From a bacterium (lineage in GTDB: Bacteria; Elusimicrobiota; Elusimicrobia; Elusimicrobiales; UBA9959): 64,000 nucleotides of DNA. The DNA is taken from the NCBI GenBank assembly GCA_021811315.1, contig JAJZPF010000007.1, forward strand, positions 1-64,000, in the 5' to 3' direction. The position numbers and the translations under genes are program-made. How positions within the stretch are numbered: position 1 is the stretch's first letter; each line of letters starts with the position of its first letter. The notes under the pieces are model-generated. The model had not been told where the DNA came from. It searched no databases and saw only the letters and a list, made by a program, of their open reading frames with translations. Positions 812 through 24,528 of the stretch are shown here, piece after piece.

Positions 812-1158
812 AAAATTTGGCGGTCCTTTCAGGATGAAATTAGAACCTACTTTGCGCAACATCCTGAGGTTAACTTATAAATACCGCCAGCAAAGCCGTT
901 AAAGCTGCGGTATGGGGATCTTATCCGCGAGATGTCGTCGCAGGCGTGGCCACGAAGCGCGGCCCCGCACTGCTCCTTGCCGCGAGAAGGCCGTTCGCAG
1001 GGCTCCGGCACTACGCGCCGTCGCACCTGCTCCCAAGGAGGCCCGCACTTATTAACAACCTCCTATGCGCGGCCGGCCGGTACCCAACTGGGCCTTACAG
1101 GGCCGCTCCCGGCCGCCTTCGGCGGCCGTACAACGCAGAAAATTATTTCCCGCGCCCA
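812..1158 (+). repeat. Left copy of a 347-bp inverted repeat flanking the island
   Basis: This segment recurs, reverse-complemented, at 24177-24523 with only a handful of mismatches, clustered around 1080-1115. It holds nested palindromes: GGCGGT (819-824) pairs with ACCGCC further in, TCAGGATG with CATCCTGA, AGGAGG with CCTCCT, and GGCCGCC-TTCG-GGCGGCC forms a UUCG-capped hairpin. Overlapping open frames exist in both copies, but neither has a start context or recognisable domain. Downstream is GCCTGTTTTT, as also follows the right copy. It could be the end of a composite element, a MITE-like repeat or a structured RNA gene. Confidence 0.85.
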
Positions 1159-1217
1159 TCAACTCTTTGCTGTTGTAAGGCGCAGTACTCCAACTCTCTG
1201 CCTGTTTTTATTATAAC

Positions 1218-2333
1218 TTATTTTGCGGTATTATTTCTGATGTATTTCTGATAAATTTCTGATAACTTGTAGGCGCGGGAGCGCCTTGAGGGGTTAGCCA
1301 GCACTATCCAGCCGTCCTTTACCCATTCGGCAAGCAGGTACAGAACCATCCGGTCGGACAGCCCTAAAGCGGCGGCCATCTCCTGTGTGGAGACCACGTC
1401 TTTCCCCGCAAAAAGGCCCAGGATCACCCGCGCCCTGCGGTCCAACTTGCGCAAAGGCTCGGGCTCCACCGGCAAGCCTTCCTTTGCACCCTTCAGGGCC
1501 TCGTCCTTGGCGCGTTTAAAGACATCTGCAAGCAGCACCACAAAATACTCAACCCAAACGGTCAGGTCGGCATCGGCGCGGCCCTCGTAATAGTTGTGGT
1601 GCTTATGCGTCGCGAGCGAAGTGTAATAAGCCTCAATATCCCGCGCATGATGCTCTTCCATAGAGAAGAACCCGCGCATACCGTAACCATCCCTGTGCAG
1701 CAGGAAAGTGGCCAGCAGCCGGGCGGTGCGCCCGTTGCCGTCATAATAGGGGTGGATGGTAACGAACTGATAATGCGCCAGCGCCGCTATTATGGGGCCG
1801 GGTATTCCGTTGCGCTCGGCCTGGCGCACCCAGGCGGCCATCTCGCTCATCAGCTTGGGCACGTCTTTGGCCTCGGGCGGCATATACACAATAGCGCCGG
1901 TGGCCGAATCTTTAATTACGTTCTGCCCGGTGCGGTAGGGCGTTTCCTTTGAGCGTTTACCTTTCTCGACAATAGCGTGGAGCCGCCGCACCAACTCTTC
2001 GGTGAACTCGGCGCGCTTCGCCGCCCACTCTTCCACCTTAAGCATCGCGTTCCAATAGTTGCGGACCTCGCTGGTGTCACGCTCACGGCCGTGGAAAGAG
2101 GTTTTCTTATGCTCAATAGCGTCCTGCGCCTCTTTTAGTGTAAGGCGGTTGCCCTCAATACGGGTAGAGAAGTGCGTGGACCGCACCCTGGCCGCGCGCC
2201 GCAGTTCCGCCTCAACAGCGGGCGGCAAAGCCGTGCGCTCTACAATGGTCTTTGCGGACTCAATGTCCATCAAAGCCCTGGTGACTTTAAGGGTTATGGC
2301 GTAACATGGCGCCCATTTTTTTGCCTTATTCAT
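1218..2333 (-). CDS. Fic family protein with N-terminal inhibitory motif and C-terminal winged helix
   Basis: 371 residues. The Fic core motif HPYYDGNGRTAR matches HPFx(D/E)GNGRxxR of AMP-transferring Fic enzymes, which attach AMP to Ser, Thr or Tyr of target proteins. An N-terminal STRIEGN matches the (S/T)xxxE(G/N) inhibitory helix placed before the core (class II), so the enzyme is probably auto-inhibited. The last ~90 residues look like a winged-helix DNA-binding domain. It is the distal gene of the island, separated from moeA by 195 bp. The ATG at 2333 has no clear ribosome site; an in-frame ATG at 2270 is an alternative. No antitoxin partner is adjacent. Target unknown. Confidence 0.85.
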   Translation of the reverse strand: MNKAKKWAPCYAITLKVTRALMDIESAKTIVERTALPPAVEAELRRAARVRSTHFSTRIEGNRLTLKEAQDAIEHKKTSFHGRERDTSEVRNYWNAMLKVEEWAAKRAEFTEELVRRLHAIVEKGKRSKETPYRTGQNVIKDSATGAIVYMPPEAKDVPKLMSEMAAWVRQAERNGIPGPIIAALAHYQFVTIHPYYDGNGRTARLLATFLLHRDGYGMRGFFSMEEHHARDIEAYYTSLATHKHHNYYEGRADADLTVWVEYFVVLLADVFKRAKDEALKGAKEGLPVEPEPLRKLDRRARVILGLFAGKDVVSTQEMAAALGLSDRMVLYLLAEWVKDGWIVLANPSRRSRAYKLSEIYQKYIRNNTAK

Positions 2334-2359
2334 TTATAAGCATTAAAAGTAATCAGTTT

Positions 2360-2512
2360 CTATTCGTCCATCTCAAGCACGAAGGAATAGGTCTTGCCTG
2401 CATTTTTTCAATAATTCAACAATGGATTGCTGAAAATTATGATCCTTAATAAAAGGGCACAGCCTACCCTTTATAATATCAAAATCAGGAGGCACAGGTT
2501 GATTAAGGTAAT
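2360..2512 (-). pseudogene. Probable remnant of a short gene, frameshifted in an A-run
   Basis: Between moeA and the Fic gene the minus strand carries two short open stretches that look coding but lie in different frames: one containing DFDIIKGRLCPFIKDHNF, the next ending AGKTYSFVLEMDE before a TAG at 2360-2362. They meet at a run of six A residues. A one-base change there would join them into one C-terminal segment of roughly 50 residues. No start codon or ribosome site was found. It may be a decayed gene or chance; the composition and peptide character favour decay. Confidence 0.35.
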
Positions 2513-2528
2513 GCGGCCGGGAGCGGCA

Positions 2529-3710
2529 TTAAAGCAGCAGGACTTTCACCTTTTCACCGGCACGGAGGGTCCTAGCCGGGGAAGGGCCGAGTTCAATCAG
2601 GCAATTGGTTCTCAAAAAAGAGGACAGCATATGGGAGCCCTGCCCTGGGAGCGGCTTAACTTTGCCGCCGTTGAAACGCCCCCTGAGGAAACTAGCGCGG
2701 TTGCCACCGGCTTTAACCGGCCCCGACAGCGAAGCTATGGTCTCGGGGAGAAAAACCTCGCGCCTCTGCATATATTTGTTTATCGCAGGGAGCACATACA
2801 GGTAAAAACAGGTTATTACGGCCGCAGGATTACCCGGAAGGCCGAGGAACAAAGTCCTGTTCCTGGCCCCGGCATACATGGGCTTGCCGGGTTTCTGCGC
2901 GACCTTCCAGAATATTCTTTTTACCCCGTACTCCTCCAGTTCCTCCTTCACATAGTCATGTCCGCCCACGGAAACCCCGCCGGTCAGAATTACTATTTCA
3001 GGAAGTTTTTTAAGTTTTCCCAGGAACGCCGGCAACAGCCCTTTTTTATCAGGTAGGGCCCTCAGGAACGCAGGTTTTACTCCGGCCGCTCCGAGAAGAG
3101 CCGCAAGGCTCCAGAGGTTGGCGTTGCGGATCTGATTCTTTCCGAGGCGCCGGGAGCTGACGGGGGCGACCTCGCTGCCGGTGGTTATTACTCCCACGGA
3201 AGGAGGCTGGAAGACCCTGAGGCTGGTAATTCCCAGCGCCCCGAAGCTCCCCATTGCCTGTGGAGTTACCAAGTCGCCTTTATTGCAAAGACGGGCTCCT
3301 TTTTTAATATCGTCACCGGCTTTCCTTATGTTGTCCCCTTTCCCGGGCTTAACGCGGATCTTGATGCTAGCGGCCTCCGCCATAACATCCTCTACCCGCA
3401 CCACGGCGCCGGTATTGCCGGGGAGCGGCGAGCCGGTGGCGATATAAGCTGATTCTCCGGCCTTCAGCACCTGCATAGATATGCCCCCGGCGAAGATCTT
3501 GCCGGATACTTTTAACGAGGCCCTTTCAAGGTCTCCGGCCCTTACGGCGTAGCCATCCATAGCCGACTGTTTAAAGCGCGGCAAATTCTCAGGGGAAGTC
3601 ACCTCCCCGGCAAGAACGCGGCCGGCGCAATTCATGGTTTCGAGACGTCCGACAAGGCCTTTCCCGATATTCTTCAAGATCAGTTGTTGGGCTTTTTTTA
3701 CGCTTATCAT
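2529..3710 (-). CDS. moeA: Molybdopterin molybdenumtransferase MoeA
   Basis: 393 residues, normal for MoeA, which inserts molybdate into adenylylated molybdopterin to give Mo-MPT in the cytoplasm. Visible family motifs are PRFKQSAMDGYAVRAGD near residue 45, the TGSPLPGNTGAVVRVEDV segment, VGVITTGSEV, and LTGGVSVGGHDYVKEEL of the MoCF fold, followed by the C-terminal domain IV with LGLPGNPAAVITCF. GAGGA precedes the ATG at 3710. It is the last Moco gene in the leftward operon that serves the molybdoreductase at 8607-11816. Confidence 0.95.
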   Translation of the reverse strand: MISVKKAQQLILKNIGKGLVGRLETMNCAGRVLAGEVTSPENLPRFKQSAMDGYAVRAGDLERASLKVSGKIFAGGISMQVLKAGESAYIATGSPLPGNTGAVVRVEDVMAEAASIKIRVKPGKGDNIRKAGDDIKKGARLCNKGDLVTPQAMGSFGALGITSLRVFQPPSVGVITTGSEVAPVSSRRLGKNQIRNANLWSLAALLGAAGVKPAFLRALPDKKGLLPAFLGKLKKLPEIVILTGGVSVGGHDYVKEELEEYGVKRIFWKVAQKPGKPMYAGARNRTLFLGLPGNPAAVITCFYLYVLPAINKYMQRREVFLPETIASLSGPVKAGGNRASFLRGRFNGGKVKPLPGQGSHMLSSFLRTNCLIELGPSPARTLRAGEKVKVLLL

Positions 3711-3794
3711 GACAAGTCCTCGTAAACCGGAGGCGCACCTTGTGCGCCGGCCGGAGTTTAAACAGTCAGTTTTTAAACCACTCTTAGCTGTTCT

Positions 3795-4253
3795 TCAAAG
3801 ATCTTCAACCTTTTCCACCCTGTCTCCCACGGCTATCGTTCCGCCTTCCACGACCTCCGCGAAGATCCCTTCACGCGGCATTATACAGTCGCCAACCTGG
3901 TGGTAGATGGCGCAGCGCTTATGACATTCCTTGCCTATTTTCGAAATCTTAAGAATGGCCCCTCCGCCCACCCTAAGATTATCCCCGATCCTGAGGAGCG
4001 CCAGGTTTATGCCTTCGGTAGTTATGTTCTCCGCATAAATCCCGGCGCGGATCTCCACCGCGGCGTTCTTAAGCCTGGCTGCCTCCATCTGGCCGCGCAC
4101 GCTCTCCATGGGGAGCAGGCTGACCTGGCGCAATGCGGTGCCGGCGTGGGCGTCGTTCTTTATTCCGTAGTTTTTCACAAGCACTGCGCCCGGCGCTTGT
4201 ATCTTAGGCACGCCTTTCTCCGTGCTGTAATTTATCGAAAATATTTTTCCCAT
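3795..4253 (-). CDS. MOSC domain protein
   Basis: 152 residues spanning a single MOSC domain, the fold found at the C-terminus of Moco sulfurases and in YiiM-type proteins. The typical features are an N-terminal beta segment with GIKNDAHAG, the RAGIYAENITTEGI block, and a conserved cysteine in GKECHKRC followed by DCIMPREGIFAEV. Stand-alone MOSC proteins are often found inside molybdenum cofactor operons and are thought to handle sulfur or modified Moco. It sits between moeA and the TauE/SafE gene on the same strand, supporting a role in finishing Moco for the reductase. Exact reaction unknown. Confidence 0.85.
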   Translation of the reverse strand: MGKIFSINYSTEKGVPKIQAPGAVLVKNYGIKNDAHAGTALRQVSLLPMESVRGQMEAARLKNAAVEIRAGIYAENITTEGINLALLRIGDNLRVGGGAILKISKIGKECHKRCAIYHQVGDCIMPREGIFAEVVEGGTIAVGDRVEKVEDL

Positions 4254-4288
4254 ATTGTCCCTCCCGGTCTGAAGCGAGCCGACGGGGC

Positions 4289-5026
4289 TTATGCCATTAC
4301 CCGGCCCAGCAGTTTAAAGGCGGCCATCACCATAACGGCCGCCAAAACGCGGCAGAGGGCGAGCCCCCCAAGGCGCCTCGCCCCCAGGTGCGAACCGATA
4401 ATGCCGCCTAGAAAGGCGGCAAAGACCAGCGGTAAAAGCTGGCCCACGTCCAGCGAGTTGCGCGCCGAATGCCCATAGAACGCCGCGAGAGAGTTAACCC
4501 AGATAAAGCAGGCGGCGGCGGCCGCCGCACGCTTCGCGTCGGCCCAGCGCAGCAGGATAAGAATGGGGCTCAAAAAGATACCGCCGCCGATCCCGATCAG
4601 GCCCGACAAAAATCCGATGCCTGCGCCGATAGGCAAAGCCAGGCGCAGCGGAGGCCCGGAGAATTCACTTTCCTCCTCGTTGCGCCGGCCAACGCCTAAA
4701 AGGCGGAGGGCGGAAAAAAGCAGGGCCGCGGCCAGCAGCCAGCCGTATAACCGGGGGGAAACCTCGACCAGTCCGCCAAGGAGGGCTGCGGGGACGGAAG
4801 CGATTGCAAAAGGCCAGAACAGCCTTGGCACAAAATAACCGGCGCGCCAGTAAGTGATAAAAGCCACACCGGACACCAGCAGGTTCAGCACCAGAGCGCC
4901 AGGGGCCATCTGCGCCGGCGAAGAACCCATAAGCGCCATGACCAGCAGGTAGCCGGAGGCGCCGCCGTGGCCTACGGCAGAGTAAGCGACGGCGACAAGA
5001 AAGACCAGCGGAAAGGTAGCGTCCAT
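4289..5026 (-). CDS. TauE/SafE family membrane permease
   Basis: 245 residues with about seven or eight hydrophobic segments and the duplicated half-signature of the TauE/SafE family (SAVGHGGASGYLLVMALMG near the start; GIGFLSGLIGIGGGIFLSPILI near residue 150). Characterised members export sulfite, sulfoacetate or related anions. It is inserted between the MOSC gene and the moaC-mog fusion, two bases downstream of the latter, so it is in the same transcript. In a molybdoenzyme operon it might move sulfite, sulfide or an oxyanion related to the reductase substrate; that is inference. Confidence 0.85.
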   Translation of the reverse strand: MDATFPLVFLVAVAYSAVGHGGASGYLLVMALMGSSPAQMAPGALVLNLLVSGVAFITYWRAGYFVPRLFWPFAIASVPAALLGGLVEVSPRLYGWLLAAALLFSALRLLGVGRRNEEESEFSGPPLRLALPIGAGIGFLSGLIGIGGGIFLSPILILLRWADAKRAAAAAACFIWVNSLAAFYGHSARNSLDVGQLLPLVFAAFLGGIIGSHLGARRLGGLALCRVLAAVMVMAAFKLLGRVMA

Positions 5027-5027
5027 T

Positions 5028-5996
5028 TTATTTTATCGACCCCGCGAGCCCGCTTTTAGCGGGCTTGTTCCCGGCTTTGCGCTTCTGCTGCCAGGCGCCG
5101 CCGCCGTACATCATGGGGAAAGCGTGGAAGACGCCTGGCAGAATGGCATTGAGGGATTCTTTCACCCCCCTCGAGCTGCCGGGCAGGGCTACCACCAGCA
5201 TTTTATTGACCAGACCGCTCACAGACCTGGAGAACATGGCGTAAGGAGTTCGCTGCTGCCCGAAGGCGCGCATAGCTTCTGAGATGCCGGGTGTTTCCAT
5301 GGTGATGATCGCCTTAAGCGCTTCCACGGTGACATCGGTGGCGCCCATCCCGGTGCCTCCGGCGGTAAAAACGGCGTCCACGCCCATTTTCTCCCAGCCT
5401 AGCACCTTTGCTTTTATCTGCTCCACATCGTCAGGCAAAACGTCATAGGCCGCTATCTTTACCGGGAAAGCAGCGAGCATTTCTTTTATGAGCTGCCCGG
5501 CTTTATCCTCCTTTTTTCCGGCCGCGATCCCGTTGGAAACTGCTAGCACGGCGACCTTAAGCGGAGTGGCGAAGGAGTCCGCGAAGTCGGATTTCCCGCC
5601 CCTCTTTTCCAGCAGCTTTATCTCCTCTATAACGGCGTTCGCGTCCAGGGATTTTACCATGTCGTAAACGGTAAGCGCCGCCACCGCGCAGGCCGTAAGC
5701 GCCTCCATCTCTATGCCGGTTTTCCAGATAGTGGAAGCCGAGGCGGTTATTTCGATCTTGTCCTTTAAAGCGTTGAACGTTATTTTCACGTCGTCTATGG
5801 GAAGCGGGTGGCAATAAGGGATAAGTTCTGACGTCTTTTTAGCAGCCATGGTGCCGGCCACTCTGGCGGTTTCAAGGACATTGCCTTTTTCGACCCGGTT
5901 CTCCACTATCCGGCGGATAAAGGCGGGCGCCATCTTTACCGACCCCATGGCGGTGGCCGTACGCAGTGTGGAATACTTGTTTGAAATATCTCTCAT
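5028..5996 (-). CDS. MoaC-MogA/MoaB fusion, bifunctional Moco biosynthesis protein
   Basis: 322 residues. The N-terminal ~145 residues are MoaC (cyclic pyranopterin monophosphate synthase), with ARVAGTMAAKKTSELIPYCHPLPI and the GIEMEALTACAVAALTVYDM segment. The remainder is a MogA/MoaB-type molybdopterin adenylyltransferase domain with FTAGGTGMGATDVTVEAL and a LVVALPGSSRGVKESL segment. The fusion thus combines the first ring-closing step of MPT synthesis with adenylylation before metal insertion by MoeA. It lies one base after moaA and before the TauE gene. MoaD and MoaE, which add the dithiolene sulfurs in between, are not present in this window. Confidence 0.92.
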   Translation of the reverse strand: MRDISNKYSTLRTATAMGSVKMAPAFIRRIVENRVEKGNVLETARVAGTMAAKKTSELIPYCHPLPIDDVKITFNALKDKIEITASASTIWKTGIEMEALTACAVAALTVYDMVKSLDANAVIEEIKLLEKRGGKSDFADSFATPLKVAVLAVSNGIAAGKKEDKAGQLIKEMLAAFPVKIAAYDVLPDDVEQIKAKVLGWEKMGVDAVFTAGGTGMGATDVTVEALKAIITMETPGISEAMRAFGQQRTPYAMFSRSVSGLVNKMLVVALPGSSRGVKESLNAILPGVFHAFPMMYGGGAWQQKRKAGNKPAKSGLAGSIK

Positions 5997-5997
5997 A

Positions 5998-6987
5998 CTA
6001 TCCTCCTATAAACCGCATTGAATTCTTCACGCGCTTCAAATCGGCCGGGCTGGCGGAACTGATACCGTGAAATTCTTTTTTTCCCGCCAGGAACTTCCCG
6101 ATATGCTCCGGCAGGTCTCCGGCGCTTGCTTCGCGCAGAGTTTTAACATCAAGTCCGTGGGAGTCGAAAAGGCAGCGGTAAAGGACGCCGCGCGAAGAGA
6201 GCCGCAGGCGGTCGCAGGAACCGCAGAAAGGATGGGACAAAGCGGAAATGAAACCGATCTTCCCGCCGTTTATCCGATAATTCCTGGCTACGCCGTCCGT
6301 TTCGGGCGGGCCGGCGGAATATTTCCGCGCGAGGTAGTTCTCTATGCGGCTTATGGGCGCGAAAGCCGTTTTGGTAAAATCGTCCTCGCAGAAAGGCATA
6401 AGCTCTATAAACCTGACGGTGAGCCGGTTCTCCGAAGCGAACTTCACGAATGCGTCTATCTCTTCAAAAGAGAGGTCGGCGAGCGCTACGGCGTTTATCT
6501 TTGGTTTAAAACCCAGGCCAAGGGCACGGTCTATCCCGGCCCTGACGCCGCCAAGGCCGTCCGAGCCGGTAATCCTCCGGAACCGGTCCCGGTCAAGGCT
6601 GTCAAGGCTGACATTGAGGGCGTCCAGCCCGGCGTCTTTAAGCGCGGCCGCTTTGCCGGCGAGCAGGACGCCGTTAGTGGTCAGGCAGACCCTTTTTATG
6701 CCGGGTATAGCCTTTGCGCCTTCGACAAGCTGCTCTATATCGGGCCGCACTAAAGGCTCGCCGCCGGTAAAGCGCACCTTCTCTACGCCGATAGCCCCCA
6801 GCGCGCGGATAAACCCCAGCATTTCAGGTAAAGAGATCTCGGTCCCTTTGTTGTTTTTTTGTGAACAGGGAGAAGGCTGCGCGCCCGGGGCGCAGTAGCG
6901 GCAGGACAAATTACATTTAGGTGTGACGGAAACGCGCACATAGGTATGGGCGCGCCCGAAGGAATCGATATTATCAAATCTCTCCAT
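5998..6987 (-). CDS. moaA: GTP 3',8-cyclase MoaA
   Basis: 329 residues from the ATG at 6987, which is preceded by AAGGAAAG; an upstream in-frame ATG at 7041 is unlikely. MoaA is the radical SAM enzyme that starts molybdopterin synthesis from GTP. The N-terminal cluster motif is CNLSCRYC, followed by VRFTGGEPLVRPDIE. The C-terminal second cluster has FCGSCDRLRLSSRG with a third Cys in YRCLF. The protein ends in the double glycine (MRFIGG) needed for the cyclase step. It has an unusual short Cys/Ser/Gln-rich insertion right after the first cluster. It is co-transcribed with mobA and moaC-mog. Confidence 0.95.
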   Translation of the reverse strand: MERFDNIDSFGRAHTYVRVSVTPKCNLSCRYCAPGAQPSPCSQKNNKGTEISLPEMLGFIRALGAIGVEKVRFTGGEPLVRPDIEQLVEGAKAIPGIKRVCLTTNGVLLAGKAAALKDAGLDALNVSLDSLDRDRFRRITGSDGLGGVRAGIDRALGLGFKPKINAVALADLSFEEIDAFVKFASENRLTVRFIELMPFCEDDFTKTAFAPISRIENYLARKYSAGPPETDGVARNYRINGGKIGFISALSHPFCGSCDRLRLSSRGVLYRCLFDSHGLDVKTLREASAGDLPEHIGKFLAGKKEFHGISSASPADLKRVKNSMRFIGG

Positions 6988-7068
6988 CTTTCTTTCCTTA
7001 CTGTGGAGGCATAGCCGTTTCCAGCTACACCCTGTCGGCATCAGGTCCTGGCCAGAAGGCTTTAGCCC

Positions 7069-7677
7069 TTAATGCTCGAAAGATTTTAATAACCGCAGAT
7101 CCTGCGGGGTATTTATGTTCCGGAAGAAAACATCCGGATCCCCGAACCTGAGCAGTTCATTCCCTGCTACTTTCTTAACTTTAAACTCGCTTAAAAGCCG
7201 CGCCAGTTTCAGCTTTCCCGCAGCCAGCGCTTCACTTATCTTTCCCAGACAACTCCGCGAATATACGGCGTACAGCGGTTGATACTTTCCTTGATGGTGC
7301 GGAATTACCGCCTGAAAACCTTGTTTAATGCTTCCCGCCATATAACTCGCGAGGTCCTGGCTGATGAACGGGAGATCACAGGCGGTCACGAAATTATACT
7401 CGGAATCAGAATTTTTCAACCCGGTGTAAAGACCGCCCATGGGCCCCAGCCCGGGAACGATATCGGTTACGATTTTTACGCGGCTCATGGCCTTATATTG
7501 CCACGGGGAATTGGTTACAAGAATGAACTTCCCGAACCGCTCTTTCAAAAATTCGACCTGCCGTTCCACCAGGGTTTTTCCACCCAGCCTTAGAAAAGCC
7601 TTATCAAAGCCCATCCTGCTGGACCTGCCGCCGCAGAGTATGATCGCGTTCACCTGATCGCGGTCGGAAAGAGTCAT
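7069..7677 (-). CDS. mobA: Molybdenum cofactor guanylyltransferase MobA
   Basis: 202 residues. MobA adds GMP to Mo-MPT to make the bis-MGD cofactor used by the DMSO reductase family, exactly the class of enzyme encoded upstream. The nucleotide-binding signature ILCGGRSSRMGFDKA is at the N-terminus, with TDIVPGLGPMGGLYTGL and the metal-binding TACDLPFIS motif further on. Its start overlaps the end of tatC by four bases, which ties cofactor maturation to export of the folded enzyme. Confidence 0.94.
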   Translation of the reverse strand: MTLSDRDQVNAIILCGGRSSRMGFDKAFLRLGGKTLVERQVEFLKERFGKFILVTNSPWQYKAMSRVKIVTDIVPGLGPMGGLYTGLKNSDSEYNFVTACDLPFISQDLASYMAGSIKQGFQAVIPHHQGKYQPLYAVYSRSCLGKISEALAAGKLKLARLLSEFKVKKVAGNELLRFGDPDVFFRNINTPQDLRLLKSFEH

Positions 7678-8393
7678 GCTCCGGAACCAGCAGCCGCTAA
7701 CTTCGAGACCCAGATGCTTAGCTCGTACAGGGCCAGCATAGGAACAGCAAGGAGAAGCAGGTTGAAAACATCCGAGGTCGGCGTAATTATGGCCGCCGCT
7801 ATTAAGATCCCTACGACGGCGTAGCGGTATTTTTCTCTGAGAACTCCGCTTTTCAGGATACCCAGCCTGGTTAAGATATAACTTAAAACCGGCATTTCAA
7901 AAACAATTCCGGTTGCCAAAGCGGTCCAGATCACAAAAGAAATGTATTCCTGGGCCGAAATCATCGGCTGAAGCTCGCCTCCGGCAAAACCGAGCAGGAA
8001 TTTAAGCGCAGGCGGGATCAGGATCAGGTAGGCGAACGCCGCGCCTGCAATAAAGGCCGTAAAAACCCCGCCCACGAAAACAAAAGCTTTTCTCCTGAAG
8101 TTATCTCCGGAGGCCGGCTCCACGAACTTCCAGATCTCGTACAGAACGACCGGCAGCGAAAGCACCAGACCAAAAGCGAACGAGATATTAAGATAGATCG
8201 AAAACGCTTCCTGGGGCGAGAAAAACACCAGCCTATCCACAATACCCGAAAGCGGGCGCTTCAGGAACCCCAGAAGAAGCGGGGAATAATTGAAAGACAC
8301 GCCTGCCGCGACACCGAAGAAGCCCAGCGAAACGATCAGCCTCTTTCTAAGTTCTATCAAATGCCCGCTAAGAGGGAGTTCCTGGTCCATCAC
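7674..8393 (-). CDS. tatC: Sec-independent translocase subunit TatC
   Basis: 239 residues with six predicted membrane segments and the TatC signature near the N-terminus (SGHLIELRKRLIVSL). A conserved mid-protein motif follows the second segment (SPQEAFSIYLNISFAFG). TatC recognises twin-arginine signal peptides on folded cofactor-containing proteins. It overlaps tatA by four bases and lies just after the reductase genes, both of which have Tat-like signal peptides, so it may be a dedicated export system for this island. A chromosomal Tat system elsewhere cannot be excluded. Confidence 0.95.
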   Translation of the reverse strand: MMDQELPLSGHLIELRKRLIVSLGFFGVAAGVSFNYSPLLLGFLKRPLSGIVDRLVFFSPQEAFSIYLNISFAFGLVLSLPVVLYEIWKFVEPASGDNFRRKAFVFVGGVFTAFIAGAAFAYLILIPPALKFLLGFAGGELQPMISAQEYISFVIWTALATGIVFEMPVLSYILTRLGILKSGVLREKYRYAVVGILIAAAIITPTSDVFNLLLLAVPMLALYELSIWVSKLAAAGSGA

Positions 8394-8578: not shown

Positions 8579-8606
8579 AGTTTCTCCTATTATTGACCTC
8601 TATTTA

Positions 8607-11816: not shown

Positions 11817-11872
11817 GATTATTCTCCATATGCTTGTATAGGTGCGGCAATAGGGGCCTGCGCCCCGGCGTC

Positions 11873-13820: not shown

Positions 13821-13900
13821 GGATCCTTTGTCCTCCAATAAGATTGCTTGAACTTATAGCAAGGACAAATTTACCAAAACAAGCACTCACGGAATAGTCA

Positions 13901-13931: not shown

Positions 13932-13936
13932 CTACA

Positions 13937-17019: not shown

Positions 17020-17026
17020 AGAGCGT

Positions 17027-17032
17027 ATTATA
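17027..17032 (-). promoter_or_regulatory. -10 box of the sensor/reductase operon
   Basis: On the minus strand TATAAT lies seven bases before the small ORF's ATG. No good -35 is present at 16-18 bp (GAGTTT or similar), which fits a promoter needing an activator. It sits just inside the 3' end of the preceding radical SAM gene region and would separate the ars transcript from the sensor-kinase-regulator transcript. Confidence 0.5.
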
Positions 17033-17053
17033 CTTAACTAAAATTTTAAAAAC

Positions 17054-18283: not shown

Positions 18284-18286
18284 TTA

Positions 18287-19342
18287 TCAGGAAACGGTCT
18301 GCACGCCGTACCAGCGCCGCCCTATCCACAGGGAAACGTTCACCAGCCCTATCAGCACGGGGACTTCCACCAGCGGGCCTATAACGGCGGCAAAGGCCGC
18401 GCCGTGGCTTATGCCGAAGGTGGCTATGGCTACGGCTATAGCCAGCTCAAAGTTGTTCGACGCGGCGGTAAAAGAAAGCGTGGCGGATTCCTCGTAGTTG
18501 GCGCCCGCCTTTTTGCTCATATAGAACGAGACAAAGAACATCAGCGTGAAGTAGACCAACAGCGGTATGGCTATGCGCACCACGTCCAGCGGCACGGCCA
18601 CAATGTTCTCGCCTTTAATGGAGAACATCACTATTATGGTGAACAGCAGGGCCACCAGCGTGAGCGGGCTTAAGACATGGGTGAATTTTGAATACCATTC
18701 TTTGCCCTTCACGGCTATAAGCGAGAACCGCGTTATTATGCCCGCTATGAAAGGTATGCCCAGGTAGACGAACACGCTTTTGGCTATTTCGCCCATGGTT
18801 ATGTTCACCACCGCGCCTTCAAGCCCCAGCCAGCGCGGCACCAGCGTGACGAAGAAATAAGCGTACACCGAGAAGAACAGCACCTGGAACACGGAGTTGA
18901 ACGCGACGAGCCCCGCGCAGTATTCCCTGTCGCCGCGGGCGAGGTCGTTCCACACTATCACCATGGCTATGCAGCGGGCGAGGCCGATCATGATAAGGCC
19001 CACCATGTATTCCGGCTTGTCGCGCAGAAAAATTATGGCAAGGGCCGTCATCAGCACCGGCCCCACCAGCCAGTTCTGTATGAGCGACAGCGCCAGCACT
19101 TTCTTGTTGGCGAAGACGCGGTGCATCTCCTCGTATTTCACCTTGGCCAGCGGCGGGTACATCATAAGGATGAGGCCGATGGCTATGGGGATGGAGGTGG
19201 TGCCCACGCTGGACGCGGCGTTGAACCGCGCCACGGCGGAGGGCCACACCCAGCCCACGCCAACGCCCACGGCCATAGCCGCGAAGATCCACAGCGTAAG
19301 GTAACGGTCCAGGAACGAAAGTTTAGCTATTATCCGGTTCAT
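18287..19342 (-). CDS. acr3: ACR3 family arsenite efflux permease
   Basis: 351 residues with about ten membrane helices. The key ACR3 motif with the essential Cys is present ([16 protein letters not shown], near residue 130), as are the N-terminal [14 protein letters not shown] block and the glutamate in [15 protein letters not shown]. It expels arsenite, using the proton gradient. It overlaps arsC by four bases, so reduction of arsenate by ArsC and export of arsenite are translationally coupled. Confidence 0.95.
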
Positions 19343-19770
19343 TTCATGGCCTCCAGAGTTGCAGGCATATTTTTTACGAATTCTTTTATCTGGTCGCGCA
19401 CGCGGCGGTAATGGGCCAGCGCCTCTTCTTCCGACGCGGCGCTTTTTGCCAGGAAAGGCGGGTCTTCAAAACTCTGGTGCAGTTTCTTGGACTTGCCGAA
19501 CCACACCGGGCAGGTCTCGCGCGCATTGTCGCATACGGTCACTACCAGGTCGAAGGCCACGTCCTTAAACTCCTCCGCGCCCTTGGCCCTGTGCCCCGAA
19601 ATATCCACGCCGGCTTCGGCCATTACCTTTACTGCCCTGGGGTCCAGAATGCCGGGCTTTGTGCCGGCGGAGAAGGCCTTATAATTCGGGGCCAGCAGCT
19701 TGTCGGCCCAGCCTTCGGCCATCTGGCTGCGGCAGGAATTGCCTGTGCAGAGAAAAAGTATCTTTTTCAT
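19339..19770 (-). CDS. arsC: Thioredoxin-coupled arsenate reductase ArsC
   Basis: 143 residues, low-molecular-weight phosphatase fold. The P-loop is C8-TGNSC-R14; C80 and C87 ([12 protein letters not shown]) form the relay disulfide used by the Staphylococcus pI258 type. It reduces cytoplasmic arsenate to arsenite, which the neighbouring ACR3 pump exports. It overlaps both acr3 and arsM by four bases. This detoxifying enzyme is distinct from the periplasmic molybdoreductase encoded downstream. Confidence 0.95.
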
Positions 19771-20594
19771 TTTGCTTTCCTCGCGTATACCGTAATGCTA
19801 GCCGCCGCGCCGTCCAGCGCTTTTGAAGCTTTGGAAGTTATAGGGTCTGAGCAGCTGCCCTCGGAGCGGTAGGTATTGTCGCTGAGCAGTTTAATGCCCG
19901 TGAACCCGGCGGCTTTTATTGCGCCCAAATAATCCCGGCGCTGGAGCGCCCCGGCCACGCAGGCGGCATAAAGCCCGGCGTGTTTTTTAAGCGCCGGCGG
20001 CAGCTCGCGGTTAAGCACTATGTCGCTTACCACAATAAAACCGCCCGGCTTAAGCGCGCGGAAAGCCTCGCGGAACACGGCCGGTTTATCGGGCGACAGG
20101 TTTATAACGCAGTTGGAGATGATGAGGTCCGCCTCGGCGTTCTTCACCGGCAGTTTCTCTATTACGCCTTTGCGGAATTCCACATTGGCCAGGCCGGTGC
20201 GCTTTGTGAATTTAACCAAGTTGGCTTTGGCGAGTTTCAGCATTTCCGGCGTCATGTCCACGCCTATCACTTTGCCTTTGGCCCCGGCCAGCGGCGCGGC
20301 TATGAACACGTCCTTGCCGGCCCCGCTGCCCAGGTCCAGCACGGTCATGCCCTTTTTTATTTTTGAGAAAGCCACCGGGTTGCCGCAGGAAAGCCCCATT
20401 TCGCCCTCGGAGGCGGCGGTGTGCTTGAGGGCTTTTTTCATGGCTTTCATTTCGCCGGAGAGCCCCTTTTTCCCCGTGGCGTCCGGCGCTGACCCGCCGC
20501 AGCAGGAGGAACCGGAACAGCAGGAAACTGATTTCTGGGCCACTTCGCCATAGGCTTTTCTTACCAGCTGCCGCGTCTTTTCATGTGTTTTCAT
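19767..20594 (-). CDS. arsM: Arsenite S-adenosylmethionine methyltransferase ArsM
   Basis: 275 residues from the ATG at 20594 (GGAGAG upstream); a longer frame up to 20681 overlaps arsG and is not favoured. SAM-binding motif VLDLGSGAGKDVFIAA. The three cysteines that bind As(III) in ArsM are present: C70 in LSCGNP, C162 in ISNCVINLSPDK, C212 in LYAACVAGAL. An extra cluster of cysteines near the N-terminus (VSCCSGSSCCGG) may gather arsenic. The product is mono- to trimethylated arsenicals, which the ArsP-like permease could export. Confidence 0.94.
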   Translation of the reverse strand: MKTHEKTRQLVRKAYGEVAQKSVSCCSGSSCCGGSAPDATGKKGLSGEMKAMKKALKHTAASEGEMGLSCGNPVAFSKIKKGMTVLDLGSGAGKDVFIAAPLAGAKGKVIGVDMTPEMLKLAKANLVKFTKRTGLANVEFRKGVIEKLPVKNAEADLIISNCVINLSPDKPAVFREAFRALKPGGFIVVSDIVLNRELPPALKKHAGLYAACVAGALQRRDYLGAIKAAGFTGIKLLSDNTYRSEGSCSDPITSKASKALDGAAASITVYARKAK

Positions 20595-20620
20595 TTGGGT
20601 CTCTCCTGTGTTCGCCTTTT

Positions 20621-21313
20621 TCACAAAACGCCGAAAATGTCTTTCAGCCCCAGGTAAACGCCGCAGGCTATGAACACCCAAGCCGTAGCCGGCTTGGCGT
20701 ATTTTTCGAACCTGGCGGCCAGGCCGGTGACAGCGGATATTTTCTTAAGGCCTAGATCCAGTATTACCGCCAGCCCCATAACCGGCAGCGCCGTGCCTAT
20801 GCCGTAGAGCAGCGGCAGGTAGAAAGGGGAGGCGTTCTTTGCGGCCAGCGGCAGTATAACCCCAAAGTAAAGCGCGGCCGAGATTGGGCAGAAGGCCAGC
20901 GCGAAGACCAGCCCCATAAGCAAAGAAGACGCGGCGCCCGCGCCGCTCTTGAACTTTGCCAGGTTGAACACGTTAAAGCCTTCAAAACCGCGGCCGAACA
21001 TGTCCAGCATGTACATGCCGGCCAGCACCAGCACGGGCGACAGCGCCTGGTTGCCGTATTTCTGCATGAAGAAAGAGAAAGCCGGGGCGGACAGCAAACT
21101 TTTTACCAGCAGGAAACCGATGATCACATAGGCCAGCGCGCGGCCCAGGGCGTAAAGCCCGCCGTGCGCCAGCACCGCCAGGCGGTGCGAGCCCGAGTGT
21201 TTTGAGATATAAGTGAGCGCGGCTATATTGGTGGCCAGCGGGCAGGGGCTCACCGAAGTGATAACCCCCGCCCACAAAGCCGTAACCGCCGCAGCCCAGA
21301 GTTCAGCGCTCAT
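20621..21313 (-). CDS. ArsG-type membrane protein (CcdA/DsbD-like fold), putative aromatic-arsenical efflux
   Basis: 230 residues with six or seven hydrophobic segments and a duplicated CcdA-like pattern: SVSPCPLATNIAAL in the first half and FALAFCPISAALYFGV in the second. It resembles ArsG-family transporters paired with ArsF-type proteins in Shewanella arsEFG, reported to act on aromatic arsenicals such as roxarsone. The gene overlaps the ArsF-like gene by four bases. An alternative is a plain CcdA-like thiol electron carrier feeding the exported thioredoxin-like neighbour. The pairing with ArsF favours the ArsG reading. Confidence 0.75.
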   Translation of the reverse strand: MSAELWAAAVTALWAGVITSVSPCPLATNIAALTYISKHSGSHRLAVLAHGGLYALGRALAYVIIGFLLVKSLLSAPAFSFFMQKYGNQALSPVLVLAGMYMLDMFGRGFEGFNVFNLAKFKSGAGAASSLLMGLVFALAFCPISAALYFGVILPLAAKNASPFYLPLLYGIGTALPVMGLAVILDLGLKKISAVTGLAARFEKYAKPATAWVFIACGVYLGLKDIFGVL

Positions 21314-21891
21314 TTTTCGTCCAACAGTTTATGCGTTTCGCCGGTGACATAGGCCATGAAAGCTTCTTTATCGTCCAGCAACTGCCAGACCTTTTCCAGC
21401 TTGCCCCATTTAAGGGCTTTCTCGCCGGAGAATTTCTGCACCACCACGGACTTCGAGTTAAGCCAGTAGTCCTGCTTGAAATGTTCGTTGGGCTCGTCCT
21501 CTATGTTTACGCCCTTAAAAACGACCTTCCAGCCTTTGTAGTCGGCGGTGAAGTTTTTTTCAATGGCTTCCTTTGTATAGGCCTCAATGGTTTTGCAGGA
21601 AGAGCAGCGCGTGTTGGTGTAGAAGTAATAGACCACCGCCGTTTTGGCCGCGGTGGTTTTTGCGGGGGCAGTTTTTACCGGAGCGGCGGGCGTTTTTGCC
21701 TGCTCTTTTTCCGTCGGGGCTGCTGCGGCGGCTGCGGTTTCGGCCGGGAGCGCCGCGGCTTTGGCGGCGGAGCAGCAGGGCAGCACTTTGTAAACGGCCG
21801 CGCCGATGCTCGCGGCCACAAAGGCCAGCAGCACGTATTTCAGCACATTGCCCGGCTTTTTGGGCGCGGGATCAGATAAGTTGTTTTGCAT
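21310..21891 (-). CDS. ArsF-like membrane-anchored thioredoxin-fold protein
   Basis: 193 residues. One N-terminal membrane helix (YVLLAFVAASIGAAVYKVL) is followed by a low-complexity Ala/Pro/Lys/Thr linker (about 45-80). A thioredoxin-like domain follows with CSSC in YFYTNTRCSSCKTIEAYT, then DEPNEHFKQDYWLNSKSVVV and WGKLEKVWQLLDDKEAF. This pattern is that of the ArsF family, described as part of nitroaryl-arsenical processing with ArsE and ArsG. The domain would lie outside the membrane. A second Cys pair (LPCCSAAK) lies just after the helix. Confidence 0.75.
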   Translation of the reverse strand: MQNNLSDPAPKKPGNVLKYVLLAFVAASIGAAVYKVLPCCSAAKAAALPAETAAAAAAPTEKEQAKTPAAPVKTAPAKTTAAKTAVVYYFYTNTRCSSCKTIEAYTKEAIEKNFTADYKGWKVVFKGVNIEDEPNEHFKQDYWLNSKSVVVQKFSGEKALKWGKLEKVWQLLDDKEAFMAYVTGETHKLLDEK

Positions 21892-22237
21892 GTTTATATA
21901 CCTTTTCTATATTGCGCTCGGTCACGGGGGCTTTGCCCTTTTCAAGGCCGCAGTCGGTCACTTTCAAATGCTTGAACTTTTTAACGCCGTGGGTCTCCAG
22001 CGTTTTCTTGGCGCAGCCCACCGCGCAGCCGTCCAGCGCTATCACCAGGTCCGCCCCGTTGGCCGAAGCTATGAAGCCGCTGATATTGGCGCCCACGCCG
22101 GCCAGGCAGCTTAACTTCACGCAGGTTTCCTTGGAAAGCAGCCGCGCGGCCCTGTCGGCCAGCTCGCCCACGTCCGCCGCCCCGGAACACGGGAACACCA
22201 GCATGGTCTTACCGCCGCAAGCGCATTGTTCGGCCAT
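21872..22237 (-). CDS. DGC-domain putative zinc-binding protein
   Basis: 121 residues. It has the DGC family motif LDGCAVGCAKKTLE and further conserved cysteines in CACGG, FPCSGAADVGELADRAA, KLSCLAGVGA and TDCGLEKG. Proteins of this family are predicted metal- or thiol-binding and often sit with ArsP/thioredoxin/ArsR genes. Its 3' end overlaps the arsF-like gene by 20 bases. It might buffer or hand over As(III) or take part in thiol exchange with the thioredoxin encoded just upstream; neither is demonstrated. Confidence 0.8.
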   Translation of the reverse strand: MAEQCACGGKTMLVFPCSGAADVGELADRAARLLSKETCVKLSCLAGVGANISGFIASANGADLVIALDGCAVGCAKKTLETHGVKKFKHLKVTDCGLEKGKAPVTERNIEKVYKHAKQLI

Positions 22238-22238
22238 A

Positions 22239-22481
22239 TTATTTCGCCTCCAGGATTATTTTCTTAAGGTCTTCCGTGGACGGGAGTCTGCCCGCGAACT
22301 TAACCTCGCCGTTTATAGCCAGCGCGGGTGTCATCATCACGCCCATCTCGGTTATTTTCTCGATGTCGTCCACCTTTTCTATTTCGTATTCTAGGCCTAG
22401 CTCTTTGGCCGCGGCCTCGGCGGCGGAGTAAAGTTTGGCGCATTTAGCGCAGCCCATGCCCAGTATCTGGATCTTTTTCAT
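22239..22481 (-). CDS. Small thioredoxin-like protein (redox-active disulfide protein 2 type)
   Basis: 80 residues, the compact thioredoxin fold found beside ArsP-like permeases. The redox pair is C14-A-K-C17 in LGMGCAKCAKLY, and the cis-proline loop is in MTPALAINGEVKFAGRLPS. It lacks a signal peptide, so it acts in the cytoplasm. It may reduce arsenicals or recycle ArsC, or serve as ArsE in the ArsEFG sense. It is separated from arsP by 12 bases and from the DGC gene by one. Confidence 0.85.
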   Translation of the reverse strand: MKKIQILGMGCAKCAKLYSAAEAAAKELGLEYEIEKVDDIEKITEMGVMMTPALAINGEVKFAGRLPSTEDLKKIILEAK

Positions 22482-22493
22482 AATCTGAACTCC

Positions 22494-23456
22494 TTATTTC
22501 ATCACGTAATTGAACAGAAAGCCGGTGAACATAATGCCGAGCCCGACGATGCCGAAGAAAATGAACAGCAGTTTCAACTTCATCACGCGGCGCAGGATCA
22601 GGAACTCGGGCAGGGACAGCCCGGTGACGGCCATCATGAAAGCCAGCGTAGTGCCCAGCGCCACACCTTTCTCGGTAAGGGCGCTCACCAGCGGTATAAC
22701 GCCGGCGGCGTTGGAATACAGCGGTATGCCCACCAGCGTGGCCAGCGGCACCGCGTACCATTTATCCGCCCCGGCCCAGCGGGCCAGGAAGTTCTCCGGC
22801 ACATAGCCGTGTATCCATGCGCCTATGCCAATGCCGATAAGCACATAGGGCCAGACCGTCTTGAGAATGTCTATGGTATATTCCCGGGCGAAAGAAAAAC
22901 GCTCGGCCCAGGGCATATCCGCGCCAAAGGCCACGTTCTGTATGCGCTTTGAAAGGTCGAAGCCTTCAAGCAAGTGTTCCAGATTAAGCCTGCCGATTAT
23001 CAGGCCGGAAACCACCGCTATGATATAACCGCTCACGGCATAAAGCAGGGCTATCTTGAAACCGAACATGCCGAACAGCATGACCAGCGCCACTTCGTTT
23101 ATCATGGGCGAGGCCACCAGGAAAGAGAACGTAACGCCCAGCGGTATGCCGGTCTGCACGAAGCCGAGGAACAGCGGTATGGCGCTGCATGTGCAGAACG
23201 GGGTGATAATGCCGAGACCCGCCGCCCACAAATGCCCGGAGAAACGGCTCTTTTTCAGAATTATCTCGCGGATCTTCGACGGGGGCAGGAAGGTGCGGAT
23301 TATGGAGACCGCGAAGATTATCCCGGCCAGCAGAATGAAGATCTTTATGGTGTCGAATACAAAGAAGTTGACCGCGCCGCCAGCGAGCGTTGCGCGGCCG
23401 AGGCCGAAAACCGAGTATGTGAGCCAGACGGCGAATAGTTGAACAGGTCTGAACAT
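22494..23456 (-). CDS. arsP: ArsP-like permease (DUF318 family)
   Basis: 320 residues with about eight membrane helices and the family hallmark TPFCTCSAIPLFLGF (near residue 90) plus VASPMINEVALVM. Characterised ArsP proteins expel trivalent organoarsenicals such as MAs(III) and reduced roxarsone. That fits the presence of ArsM, ArsF-like and ArsG-like genes in the same operon. Some members of this broad family have other roles, so the substrate is inferred from context. Starts one base after arsR. Confidence 0.85.
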   Translation of the reverse strand: MFRPVQLFAVWLTYSVFGLGRATLAGGAVNFFVFDTIKIFILLAGIIFAVSIIRTFLPPSKIREIILKKSRFSGHLWAAGLGIITPFCTCSAIPLFLGFVQTGIPLGVTFSFLVASPMINEVALVMLFGMFGFKIALLYAVSGYIIAVVSGLIIGRLNLEHLLEGFDLSKRIQNVAFGADMPWAERFSFAREYTIDILKTVWPYVLIGIGIGAWIHGYVPENFLARWAGADKWYAVPLATLVGIPLYSNAAGVIPLVSALTEKGVALGTTLAFMMAVTGLSLPEFLILRRVMKLKLLFIFFGIVGLGIMFTGFLFNYVMK

Positions 23457-23457
23457 A

Positions 23458-23763
23458 TTACCTCTTGATCCCGGCTATGCAGCCGGTGAAATCCAGCACG
23501 CAGGGACAGATAAGGCGGTAATGCAGCCAGTTGCCCTCGCGCCGCGCGGCTACCAGCCCCGCGTTCTTGAGTATGGACAGGTGCTTGGACACCGTCGAGA
23601 TATCGTCCCCGACCAGGTCCCGCAGCTCGCAGACGCAGACCTCTTTTTTCTTAAGGGAATTAAGTATTAAAAGCCGGGTCGGGTGCGCCATAGCCTTTAT
23701 TATCTCGGCCTGGGCCGCGTAGTCGTGCTTGGTCTTGGGTTCGGGTCTTGCCTTGGTCTTCAT
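23458..23763 (-). CDS. arsR: ArsR/SmtB family arsenic-responsive repressor
   Basis: 101 residues. A winged helix with AMAHPTRLLILNSL, the arsenic-sensing ELR helix KEVCVCELRDLVGDD (two Cys in CVC), and the recognition helix DISTVSKHLSILKNAGLV. Two extra cysteines occur in ICPCVLDFTGC at the C-terminus, which may add a metal ligand. It is the first gene of the leftward ars operon and should repress it from the operator region immediately upstream. No ribosome site is seen in front of the ATG; see the promoter entry. Confidence 0.95.
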   Translation of the reverse strand: MKTKARPEPKTKHDYAAQAEIIKAMAHPTRLLILNSLKKKEVCVCELRDLVGDDISTVSKHLSILKNAGLVAARREGNWLHYRLICPCVLDFTGCIAGIKR

Positions 23764-23771
23764 ATGTTGCT

Positions 23772-23800
23772 ATTTTGCCAAATTGCCAAATAGATGTCAA
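23772..23800 (-). promoter_or_regulatory. ars promoter with direct-repeat operator, near-leaderless
   Basis: Minus strand: TTGACA (23795-23800), 17-bp spacer, CAAAAT (23772-23777), then eight bases to the arsR ATG at 23763. The transcript would start at or within a base or two of the ATG, explaining the missing ribosome site. The spacer to -10 region contains TTTGGCAA twice in direct repeat, a likely ArsR contact site overlapping the -10 box. Confidence 0.65.
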
Positions 23801-23882
23801 GAAGGGGCGGGCGCGGCAAGGGGATATTGTTTCCGGGTGGGTCATTCAGATGTATCATGGTAGGGCGGGGACAGCATAAGGC

Positions 23883-23938
23883 GGGCCAGGCCGGGGGCGG
23901 CAGCGCCTCCCGAGCGCAAGACGCTACCGGCCTGGCCC
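23883..23938. repeat. 12-bp inverted repeat, large hairpin
   Basis: GGGCCAGGCCGG (23883-23894) and CCGGCCTGGCCC (23927-23938) are perfectly complementary, with a 32-nt loop that has its own GC-rich pairing potential. It lies between the ars promoter and the right 347-bp repeat, in a stretch (23801-24060) where I see no gene. Possible transcription stop for either direction or a small RNA stem. Confidence 0.5.
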
Positions 23939-23998
23939 TCTGCTACCTTATTTCCCCGCAGTTCTCTCCCCGGTGGCTGCAAAACAATAACAGAAAAG

Positions 23999-24041
23999 AC
24001 CAGCGCGGCGGCCGCAGCAGCGGACGCCGGGCTGGTGTTTT
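23999..24041 (+). terminator. Rho-independent terminator-like hairpin
   Basis: ACCAGC(G)CGGCG pairs with CGCCGGGCTGGT, followed by GTTTTATAAT on the plus strand. No plus-strand protein gene lies upstream, so a short non-coding plus-strand transcript from the ars promoter region is a possibility. Confidence 0.45.
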
Positions 24042-24080
24042 ATAATTACGGCGGCCACCGGTCAGCCTGAGATAGATAAC

Positions 24081-24134
24081 AAAAACAGGCCCGAGCCGCG
24101 AGCGGTGCGCGGCGCACCGCTGGCGAGCGAGGGC
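24081..24134 (-). terminator. Terminator-like hairpin after the right repeat
   Basis: On the minus strand a GC-rich stem with a perfect 10-bp core (AGCGGTGCGC/GCGCACCGCT) and flanking GCCC/GGGC pairing is followed by CTGTTTTTGTT. A minus-strand transcript passing through the right copy of the 347-bp repeat would end here. The left copy is followed in the same relative position by GCCTGTTTTT, though without an obvious stem. Confidence 0.5.
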
Positions 24135-24176
24135 AGATACTTTATAGAATTAAACTGTTCAATTTGCTCTTTGCAG

Positions 24177-24523
24177 TGGGCGCGGGAAATAATTTTCTGC
24201 GTTGTACGGCCGCCGAAGGCGGACGGGAGCGGCCGGGTAAGGCCCTGTTGGGGGCCGGCCGGCCGCGCATAGGAGGTTGTTAATAAGTGCGGGCCTCCTT
24301 GGGAGCAGGTGCGACGGCGCGTAGTGCCGGAGCCCTGCGAACGGCCTTCTCGCGGCAAGGAGCAGTGCGGGGCCGCGCTTCGTGGCCACGCCTGCGACGA
24401 CATCTCGCGGATAAGATCCCCATACCGCAGCTTTAACGGCTTTGCTGGCGGTATTTATAAGTTAACCTCAGGATGTTGCGCAAAGTAGGTTCTAATTTCA
24501 TCCTGAAAGGACCGCCAAATTTT
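24177..24523 (-). repeat. Right copy of the 347-bp inverted repeat
   Basis: Reverse complement of 812-1158 with a few substitutions. The two copies mark the ends of the arsenic/molybdoenzyme island, since housekeeping ychF begins just beyond this one. The copy's outer end carries CAGCAAAGCCG, repeated in inverted form (CGGCTTTGCTG) inside the copy about 85 bp further in, making a large imperfect palindrome with GGCGGT/ACCGCC stems. The UUCG hairpin is kept with one change in the stem. Homologous exchange between the two copies would invert the whole island. Confidence 0.85.
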
Positions 24524-24528
24524 TCAGC

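Follow-up and report, generated by a model that had tools for sequence, protein, structure and literature searches.

The DNA analysed here, referred to as the window, is a stretch of 64,000 nucleotides from a bacterium of the Elusimicrobiota (contig JAJZPF010000007.1 of assembly GCA_021811315.1, positions 1 to 64,000). Near its start are the two arms of an inverted repeat at 812–1158 and 24177–24523. The arms are 347 nt long and, as computed in the window, are 98% complementary with a spacing of 23,018 nt. An earlier note on this DNA had reported this repeat with few mismatches and we found six, all from position 1081 onward, so that the 269 bp nearest the tip are identical. A chance origin of the repeat is excluded. 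On its left is the N-terminal part of a large serine integrase gene (an open reading frame at 2–544 on the minus strand, truncated by the contig start), which lies 267 bp from the repeat. On its right, as the note had said, the housekeeping gene ychF (24585–25658, plus strand) starts 61 bp beyond the arm. Between the arms is a 23-kb cargo unit (1159–24176, genes mainly on the minus strand) with genes for a Fic protein, molybdenum cofactor (Moco) synthesis, TatC, a molybdopterin oxidoreductase, a sensor and arsenic resistance (ars). We are confident, short of certainty, that this block is the cargo of a serine-integrase island inserted at tRNA-Glu(CTC) and that the repeats are mirrored ends of the integrase gene; the effect of exchanging the integrase tail and the re-pairing of island parts considered below are proposals built on this. 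The note's idea that the repeats mark an island boundary holds: they delimit the cargo of what is a mobile island.

The repeat tip and the insertion site

To place the truncated gene in a family we relied on a homologue on another contig of the same genome, C47, to which the window fragment is 82% identical over residues 5–183. This homologue scored above the cut-offs for PF00239 (Resolvase) and PF07508 (Recombinase) and just below that for PF13408 (zinc ribbon). By the domain content of this homologue, the window gene, itself a fragment, is classed as a large serine integrase. A plus-strand reading frame enters the left copy of the repeat from outside, running through ...FPAEKLRALAGAADLNCAKFSEK and then KIWRSFQDEIRTYFAQHPEVNL to a stop codon, and in relatives the FPAEKLRALAGAADLNCAKFSEK side of this frame forms the C-terminal portion of a large serine integrase. 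Because the integrase frame runs into the repeat tip, we read the first 69 bp of the repeat as the integrase tail and the remainder as the 3' flank of the gene. Thus 812–880 (plus strand) holds the final 22 codons of the native integrase with their stop codon, as judged from the reading frame and codon comparison, and 881–1158 (plus strand) is the left repeat body, the conserved 3' flank of the integrase gene as defined by repeat comparison and alignment. Just outside the repeat, 693–811 (plus strand) holds an inverted second copy of the integrase C-terminal codons, here called seg, which ends in ...FPAEKLRALAGAADLNCAKFSEK. Positions 693–823 match the true integrase 3' end of a relative (L045) at 92% over 131 bp. 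Across the join of seg and tail, which is as in relatives, there is an intact attachment-site (attP)-like core at 794–821, consisting of GCCAAATTTT, an 8-bp spacer and AAAATTTGGC. We refer to this whole inverted copy as the mirror. At the other end of the cargo, an inverted-repeat search gave the right repeat body at 24177–24454 (minus strand). It is followed by the right tail at 24455–24523 (minus strand), which the repeat, the frame and the empty-site comparison described below identify as the integrase 3' end displaced through integration.

The stop of the frame falls near the same position in all 17 of the Elusimicrobia tail copies compared. A test of changes by codon position was uninformative in Elusimicrobia alone, so it was repeated on mirror copies from other phyla. 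In 22 such copies, from records not labelled Elusimicrobia, the changes at the three codon positions were 0.233, 0.163 and 0.410. By this measure the tail evolves as protein across phyla, where its typical form is LxEVRTFFEQNP.

The insertion site was found by comparison with relatives that lack the island, as the note had recommended. In genome G019, in which ychF is 99% identical to that of the window, the order is tRNA-Thr(TGT), tRNA-Glu(CTC), ychF, and the locus is island-free. Window positions 24512–24584 are identical to this empty site over 73 bp and the two diverge inside the repeat tip at CCGCCAAATTTT, which consists of the tRNA 3' end plus adjoining bases. The right junction is therefore resolved to the base, with the right att core at 24512–24523, which also occurs at the 3' end of tRNA-Glu in the empty site, and the identical chromosomal flank at 24524–24584. 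When the ychF loci of 17 relatives were scanned for tRNAs, the empty order tRNA-Glu(CTC)-ychF was seen in G019, G009 and G005. A copy of the repeat lies directly upstream of ychF in G024, G018 and G012, and in G015 tRNA-Glu(ctc) and ychF are 11 kb apart with a repeat copy between them. Because the empty site is a tRNA gene and the match starts in the repeat tip, we interpret the element as a tRNA-targeted serine-integrase island with attP within the integrase gene. A direct att pair is expected for such an island, with CCGCCAAATTTT at the tRNA 3' end on the left, off the contig here, and at 24512–24523 on the right. The note had taken the inverted orientation of the repeats as an argument against an attL/attR pair. 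This was mistaken, since the inverted repeat is a feature separate from that direct pair.

The note had also called for a search for the 347-bp unit in this genome and its relatives. There are 14 matches in the genome itself, some of them partial, and a match was found in 33 of 61 genomes searched. These comprise 30 of 32 genomes of the genus, counting this one, and three of five other members of the family; no match was found in the 24 genomes from a second family of the order. According to the note, many copies at ordinary loci and conserved synteny of the whole block would argue against an island boundary. The copies are indeed many, but those that were mapped belong to arrays or to the ends of islands, and some relatives have no island at this site.

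Integrase ends and their mirror in relatives

We read 18 integrase genes of relatives at the outset, and 17 of these have a foreign C-terminus with a tRNA or transfer-messenger RNA (tmRNA) at that end; only L057 has a native tail. The full set of 110 loci gave 88 distinct genes after identical ones were removed, and five of these have no 3' end, leaving 83. In 73 of the 83 the gene runs into a tRNA or tmRNA in antisense orientation, the targets being tRNA-Ser (36), Glu (14), Gln (10), Asp (6), His (5) and tmRNA (2). Two more (L151, L163) have a native tail by pattern. The remaining eight were placed in neither class by script; by eye L119, which is the contig of L057, and L165 look native and L123 looks tRNA-antisense, leaving L143, L153, L184, L188 and L218 unassigned. 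Replacement of the C-terminus through integration is thus seen in 17 of 18 and 73 of 83 relatives, and the 3' end of the window's own gene lies off the contig. Because integrated integrase genes read into the tRNA, the native tail ends up at the opposite end of the island, here as the right repeat. The tRNA-Ser(tga)/(cga) site beside a glmM-like gene (L265–L284) is a hot spot where integrase ends occur in several relatives.

The mirror is conserved upstream of the integrase. It was found in 37 of the 39 genes with at least 350 bp of upstream sequence and in 23 of the 26 with 150–349 bp. The 62 mirrors have a median length of 127 bp and a median identity of 98%. A pattern test showed the mirror continuing into a peptide resembling the tail in 35 of 45 cases, and L129 and L165 were added by eye. 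From this layout, the left repeat is the tail side of the mirror, in which the attP region is repeated in inverted orientation ahead of the integrase gene. As a control we used 30 PF07508 recombinases of the phylum, most with about 900–1000 bp of upstream sequence. None of the 21 distant recombinases (<36% identity to both integrase families) has a mirror. Among the other nine, a mirror is present in three relatives of the second integrase family, REC-B (L227, L238, L243), and in one REC-A relative (L252). No mirror was seen in L233, L232 (truncated), L237 and L248 (3' ends open) or L242.

In 32 of the 62 genes (L111–L222) the motif TTCGAA is found no more than 9 bp from the inner edge of the mirror, compared with 4.6% of background windows. 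Many of the remaining mirrors begin a few bases ahead of this motif, which is as in the tRNA T-arm and is frequent in tail copies too. TTCGAA is perhaps part of the recognition of the tRNA end by the integrase.

A scan of genome contigs gave at least 579 pattern matches. Among the matches listed, 486 encode a relative of the integrase and the best 80 of these 486 were kept. Carriers among these 80 include Elusimicrobia, many lineages of Patescibacteria and the isolate Schleiferia thermophila DSM 21410, as well as metagenome-assembled genomes (MAGs) labelled Caldisericales, Thermodesulfovibrio, Nitrospira and Actinobacteria. In a sample of the phylum, the first integrase family was present in 43 of 294 genomes (E <= 1e-60). 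A double inverted repeat occurs in several of these elements. In S. thermophila its two parts lie at 626–750/5747–5871 (125 nt, 100%) and 5864–5926/7380–7442 (63 nt, 98%), and in L165 (KatS3mg098, a record titled complete genome) they measure 292 nt (100%) and 144 nt (92%). The double repeat is also present in L189, L155 and L152, and in the REC-B locus L059 (619 nt, 96%; 173 nt, 99%). L183 and L150 have the repeat of the integrase module only. A set of viral contigs contained two relatives of the integrase (45% and 23% identical), and six plasmid and 20 phage records had a match, each below 60% identity. The cargo of the S. thermophila element (L182:822–5376) resembles a defence set by eye, with a DNA methylase and nuclease-like and OLD-type proteins, and an IS3-type transposase lies inside or beside it.

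Proposed mechanism and competing readings

In the reading that we favor, a large serine integrase would insert the island at the 3' end of tRNA-Glu(CTC), with attP inside the 3' end of its own gene. Because attP sits there, integration would exchange the conserved integrase tail of about 22 residues for tRNA-antisense codons, and the native tail with its 3' flank would be left at the far island end as the right repeat. Just upstream of the integrase, the attP region is present a second time in inverted orientation (about 130 bp ahead of the core, the core itself, the tail and the 3' flank), and the tail side of this copy forms the left repeat. The island is thus composed of an integrase module between inverted seg half-sites and a cargo module between inverted half-sites of tail plus body. 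We propose that the native integrase works from a circle and, by analogy with phage Mx8 and the rumA elements, that replacement of its tail through integration weakens or re-tunes it. Once the island is integrated, the mirror may preserve attP in intact form together with a silent copy of the native tail. A mirror preserved in this way might permit occasional re-pairing, in which either attP is used, the integrase module is lost or two tRNA loci are joined.

A few loci have junctions of an unusual kind. In L158, tRNA-Ser(tga) is joined to the mirror and the integrase reads away from it, with the integrase 3' end off the contig. In L133, tRNA-Ser(tga) and tRNA-Glu(ttc) flank the integrase module and chromosomal genes lie to either side; by eye the two seg copies of this module resemble different clades. 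In L061 and L081, tRNA-Ser is beside a tail-ended cargo unit and no integrase was found inside the unit. These rare variant junctions are what joinable modules would give, which suggests that integrase and cargo can re-pair. We searched G303, the genome of L133, for the predicted partner junction. By eye there is a tail copy beside a remnant of a tRNA-Glu 3' end; ARAGORN gave no intact tRNA by this tail copy, and a partner junction on the tRNA-Ser side was not identified in this genome. A tentative extension, which we think has less than an even chance of being right, is that the element is bipartite. The mirrored attP would make both modules symmetric and separately joinable, and this could permit the use of either attP, the dropping of the integrase module to leave integrase-free cargo at a tRNA (as L061 and L081 hint), the joining of tRNA loci (as L133 hints) and reactivation via the silent tail. 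If this were so, the joining of two tRNA loci would both move cargo and rearrange the chromosome.

Islands of this kind also occur in arrays and as remnants. G019 has two REC-B islands in tandem on contig C15, and the second integrase, which has a native tail, abuts the right repeat of the first island. By eye, the first of these islands (L059–L060; G019:C15:592000–631999) carries type I restriction-modification genes and its integrase frame enters the start of a miaB-like gene. In L165 the integrase has a tail of the native type, and after it comes a decayed integrase close to tRNA-Ser. In the genome of the window, one locus (L036; G000:C35:1–8500) has three direct copies of the repeat body, integrase-free, between small gene sets that by eye include a toxin-antitoxin-like pair and a CPBP-type protein; it resembles remnants of stacked islands. 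The second integrase of this genome, on contig C47 (L034:86–1312), is without its C-terminal part, so the C47 island looks decayed at its integrase end.

Several points weigh against the favored reading or parts of it. The left (tRNA) junction falls beyond the contig start, so we infer the tRNA there, as we do the function of the mirror, and a circular excised form is a prediction from the sequence. A tRNA on the mirror side was seen at only two of 88 loci (L133, L158), and half would be expected if both attP copies were equal. The codon-position test is flat in the 17 Elusimicrobia tails taken alone (0.231, 0.252, 0.270). The REC-B gene L233 shows no mirror within 954 bp upstream, the arms of one island (G008:C84) are only 0.87 alike, and re-pairing of modules is suggested by four loci, all of them MAGs.

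We consider it unlikely, though worth keeping in mind, that the mirror is an integrase switch, where inversion of the integrase module between the mirrored arms toggles the gene from a tail coded by the tRNA (off) to the native one kept in the mirror (on) and so makes mobility phase-variable. The mirror holds an intact core and the native tail, its arms are near-identical (median 98%) as flipping needs, and in L158 the integrase faces away from the tRNA-joined mirror. The scarcity of mirror-side tRNAs disfavors inversion as the usual state. In addition, the L133 integrase has a tRNA at its other end as well, an arrangement not produced by simple inversion, and the L158 integrase 3' end is off the contig.

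Flipping of the cargo by homologous exchange, as the note had suggested, is in our view improbable. In this reading the repeats would be kept alike for the purpose of exchange. We compared seven within-island pairs of arms, one of which spans only 123 bp, and the arms are 0.96–1.00 alike in six of the seven, compared with a mean of 0.868 (maximum 0.930) over 15 comparisons between islands. Gene conversion alone could, however, keep the arms alike. To see which way the cargo is read, we used 15 units with both ends visible, from 48 fetched stretches plus the window. With rough picking of open reading frames, the cargo is mostly on the integrase strand in nine of ten Elusimicrobia units and in none of five units from elsewhere. 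By this count the cargo strand follows a lineage rule and is not random, which leaves flipping unsupported.

It is slightly less probable still that the repeat body forms a structured RNA, with the inverted pair serving its expression or processing. The mean column identity over tail and body is 79% in 17 Elusimicrobia copies, the body also occurs beside the second integrase family, and the folding of single copies is better than that of shuffled sequences (z -2.5, -3.0). An Rfam search of the window gave no match for the body at gathering score, the covariation term is unfavorable (+0.57) and changes on both sides were seen in only four of 60 predicted pairs.

The note's other suggestion, a composite or terminal-inverted-repeat transposon in which the 347-bp units serve as transposase ends and the cargo was transposed, is very improbable. 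It is true that two near-identical inverted copies flank passenger genes and that copies recur in the genome, but the tip of the repeat codes for integrase, the right end falls on the tRNA-end core of an empty site that is a tRNA gene, and by eye (no domain search of the repeat was made) there is no transposase among the open reading frames listed in the repeat. Chimeric joins from assembly or amplification are the least credible explanation, for although the loci come mostly from MAGs and the repeat is at or close to the end of many contigs, the same layout is present in the isolate S. thermophila and in KatS3mg098, and the mirror recurs in the great majority of relatives with enough upstream sequence.

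Two further identities for the repeats were considered. An integron does not fit, as the adjacent recombinase is of the serine type and not a tyrosine IntI (attC sites were not searched for). Readings of the repeat as a group II intron or as attC sites were dropped once the integrase frame was found, with no search made for either.

The cargo and comparison with known systems

The note had described the block as holding a full ars operon, a three-part sensor, a molybdenum-cofactor reductase with its export genes and most of the cofactor pathway. This gene content mostly stands, with some assignments above and others below the NCBIfam cut-offs. Above them are the ACR3 pump (448 bits, cut-off 283), an ArsR/SmtB-family regulator (88.7 bits, cut-off 55) and a PhnD-like binding protein (125 bits, cut-off 112). 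Below them is an ArsC-like protein (128.8, cut-off 174.3). The response regulator and sensor kinase beside the PhnD-like protein have MctR and MctS as best models, both below cut-off. For the molybdopterin oxidoreductase the nearest model is TtrA, far below its cut-off (479 vs 1750), and for its Fe-S partner it is ArrB (136 vs 450). At such scores TtrA and ArrB do not fix the substrate of the oxidoreductase. MoaA, MoaC, MobA, MoeA, MOSC and TatC were identified by eye from the open reading frames and not by profile. A Moco riboswitch (Rfam RF01055, 64.9 bits) lies inside the cargo at 6973–7093 on the minus strand. The oxidoreductase had no match at E <= 1e-100 among 32 other genomes searched. 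The cargo gene closest to the left repeat (1218–2333) encodes a Fic/DOC protein (PF02661). Outside the island and unrelated to it, two similar response-regulator/GGDEF-type genes face each other at 28282–30424 as a diverged inverted duplication with arms 74–79% alike. Islands of the type proposed here would account for the movement of large sets of respiration and defence genes between uncultured members of the Elusimicrobia and Patescibacteria.

A literature search that largely excluded subscription papers gave no report of mirrored attP copies or of serine integrases with a specificity for tRNA ends, although they may have been described before. The SCC elements (staphylococcal cassette chromosomes) have large serine recombinases, inverted and direct junction repeats and tandem islands, with rlmH as their target. 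To our knowledge their repeats are not derived from the end of the recombinase gene, unlike those described here.

Serine integrase genes that contain an att site are already known, as the available part of one report indicates (PMC4701971). The streptococcal rumA integrative and conjugative elements described there have, like the island, a single large serine integrase with the att site inside its gene. Unlike the island they target a protein gene, and mirrored attP copies or inverted cargo repeats are not mentioned in the passages available. Prophage Mx8 also has attP inside its integrase gene and an integrase C-terminus that is altered on integration, and its integrated integrase is reported in the excerpts available to be less active (PMC4701971; PMC4383910). 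It differs in having a tyrosine integrase and one attP. A single attP of the Mx8 or rumA kind is not what we found, for a second inverted copy is present in the window and in 37 of 39 relatives. The suicidal archaeal integrases of SSV and pTN3 likewise have the att site inside the integrase gene, and that of pTN3 has been linked with chromosome inversions (PMC8371274; PMC5495485). These are tyrosine recombinases whose gene is split in two, and a mirror is not described in the parts of these reports available.

The tRNA and tmRNA islands of the Islander survey resemble the present island in their direct att repeats at the tRNA 3' end, tandem arrays and cargo, and according to the available part of that 2014 survey, tRNA genes were known as targets of tyrosine integrases only (PMC4383910). 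The relatives described here would add a widespread family of serine integrases that target tRNA and tmRNA genes, with a conserved tail that is exchanged at each integration and a silent mirrored copy of it stored in the island. A directionality factor fused to the C-terminus of a serine integrase promotes the reverse reaction, according to the available part of one report (PMC5737554), and naturally tail-swapped integrases may provide material for work on how the direction of serine integrases is controlled.

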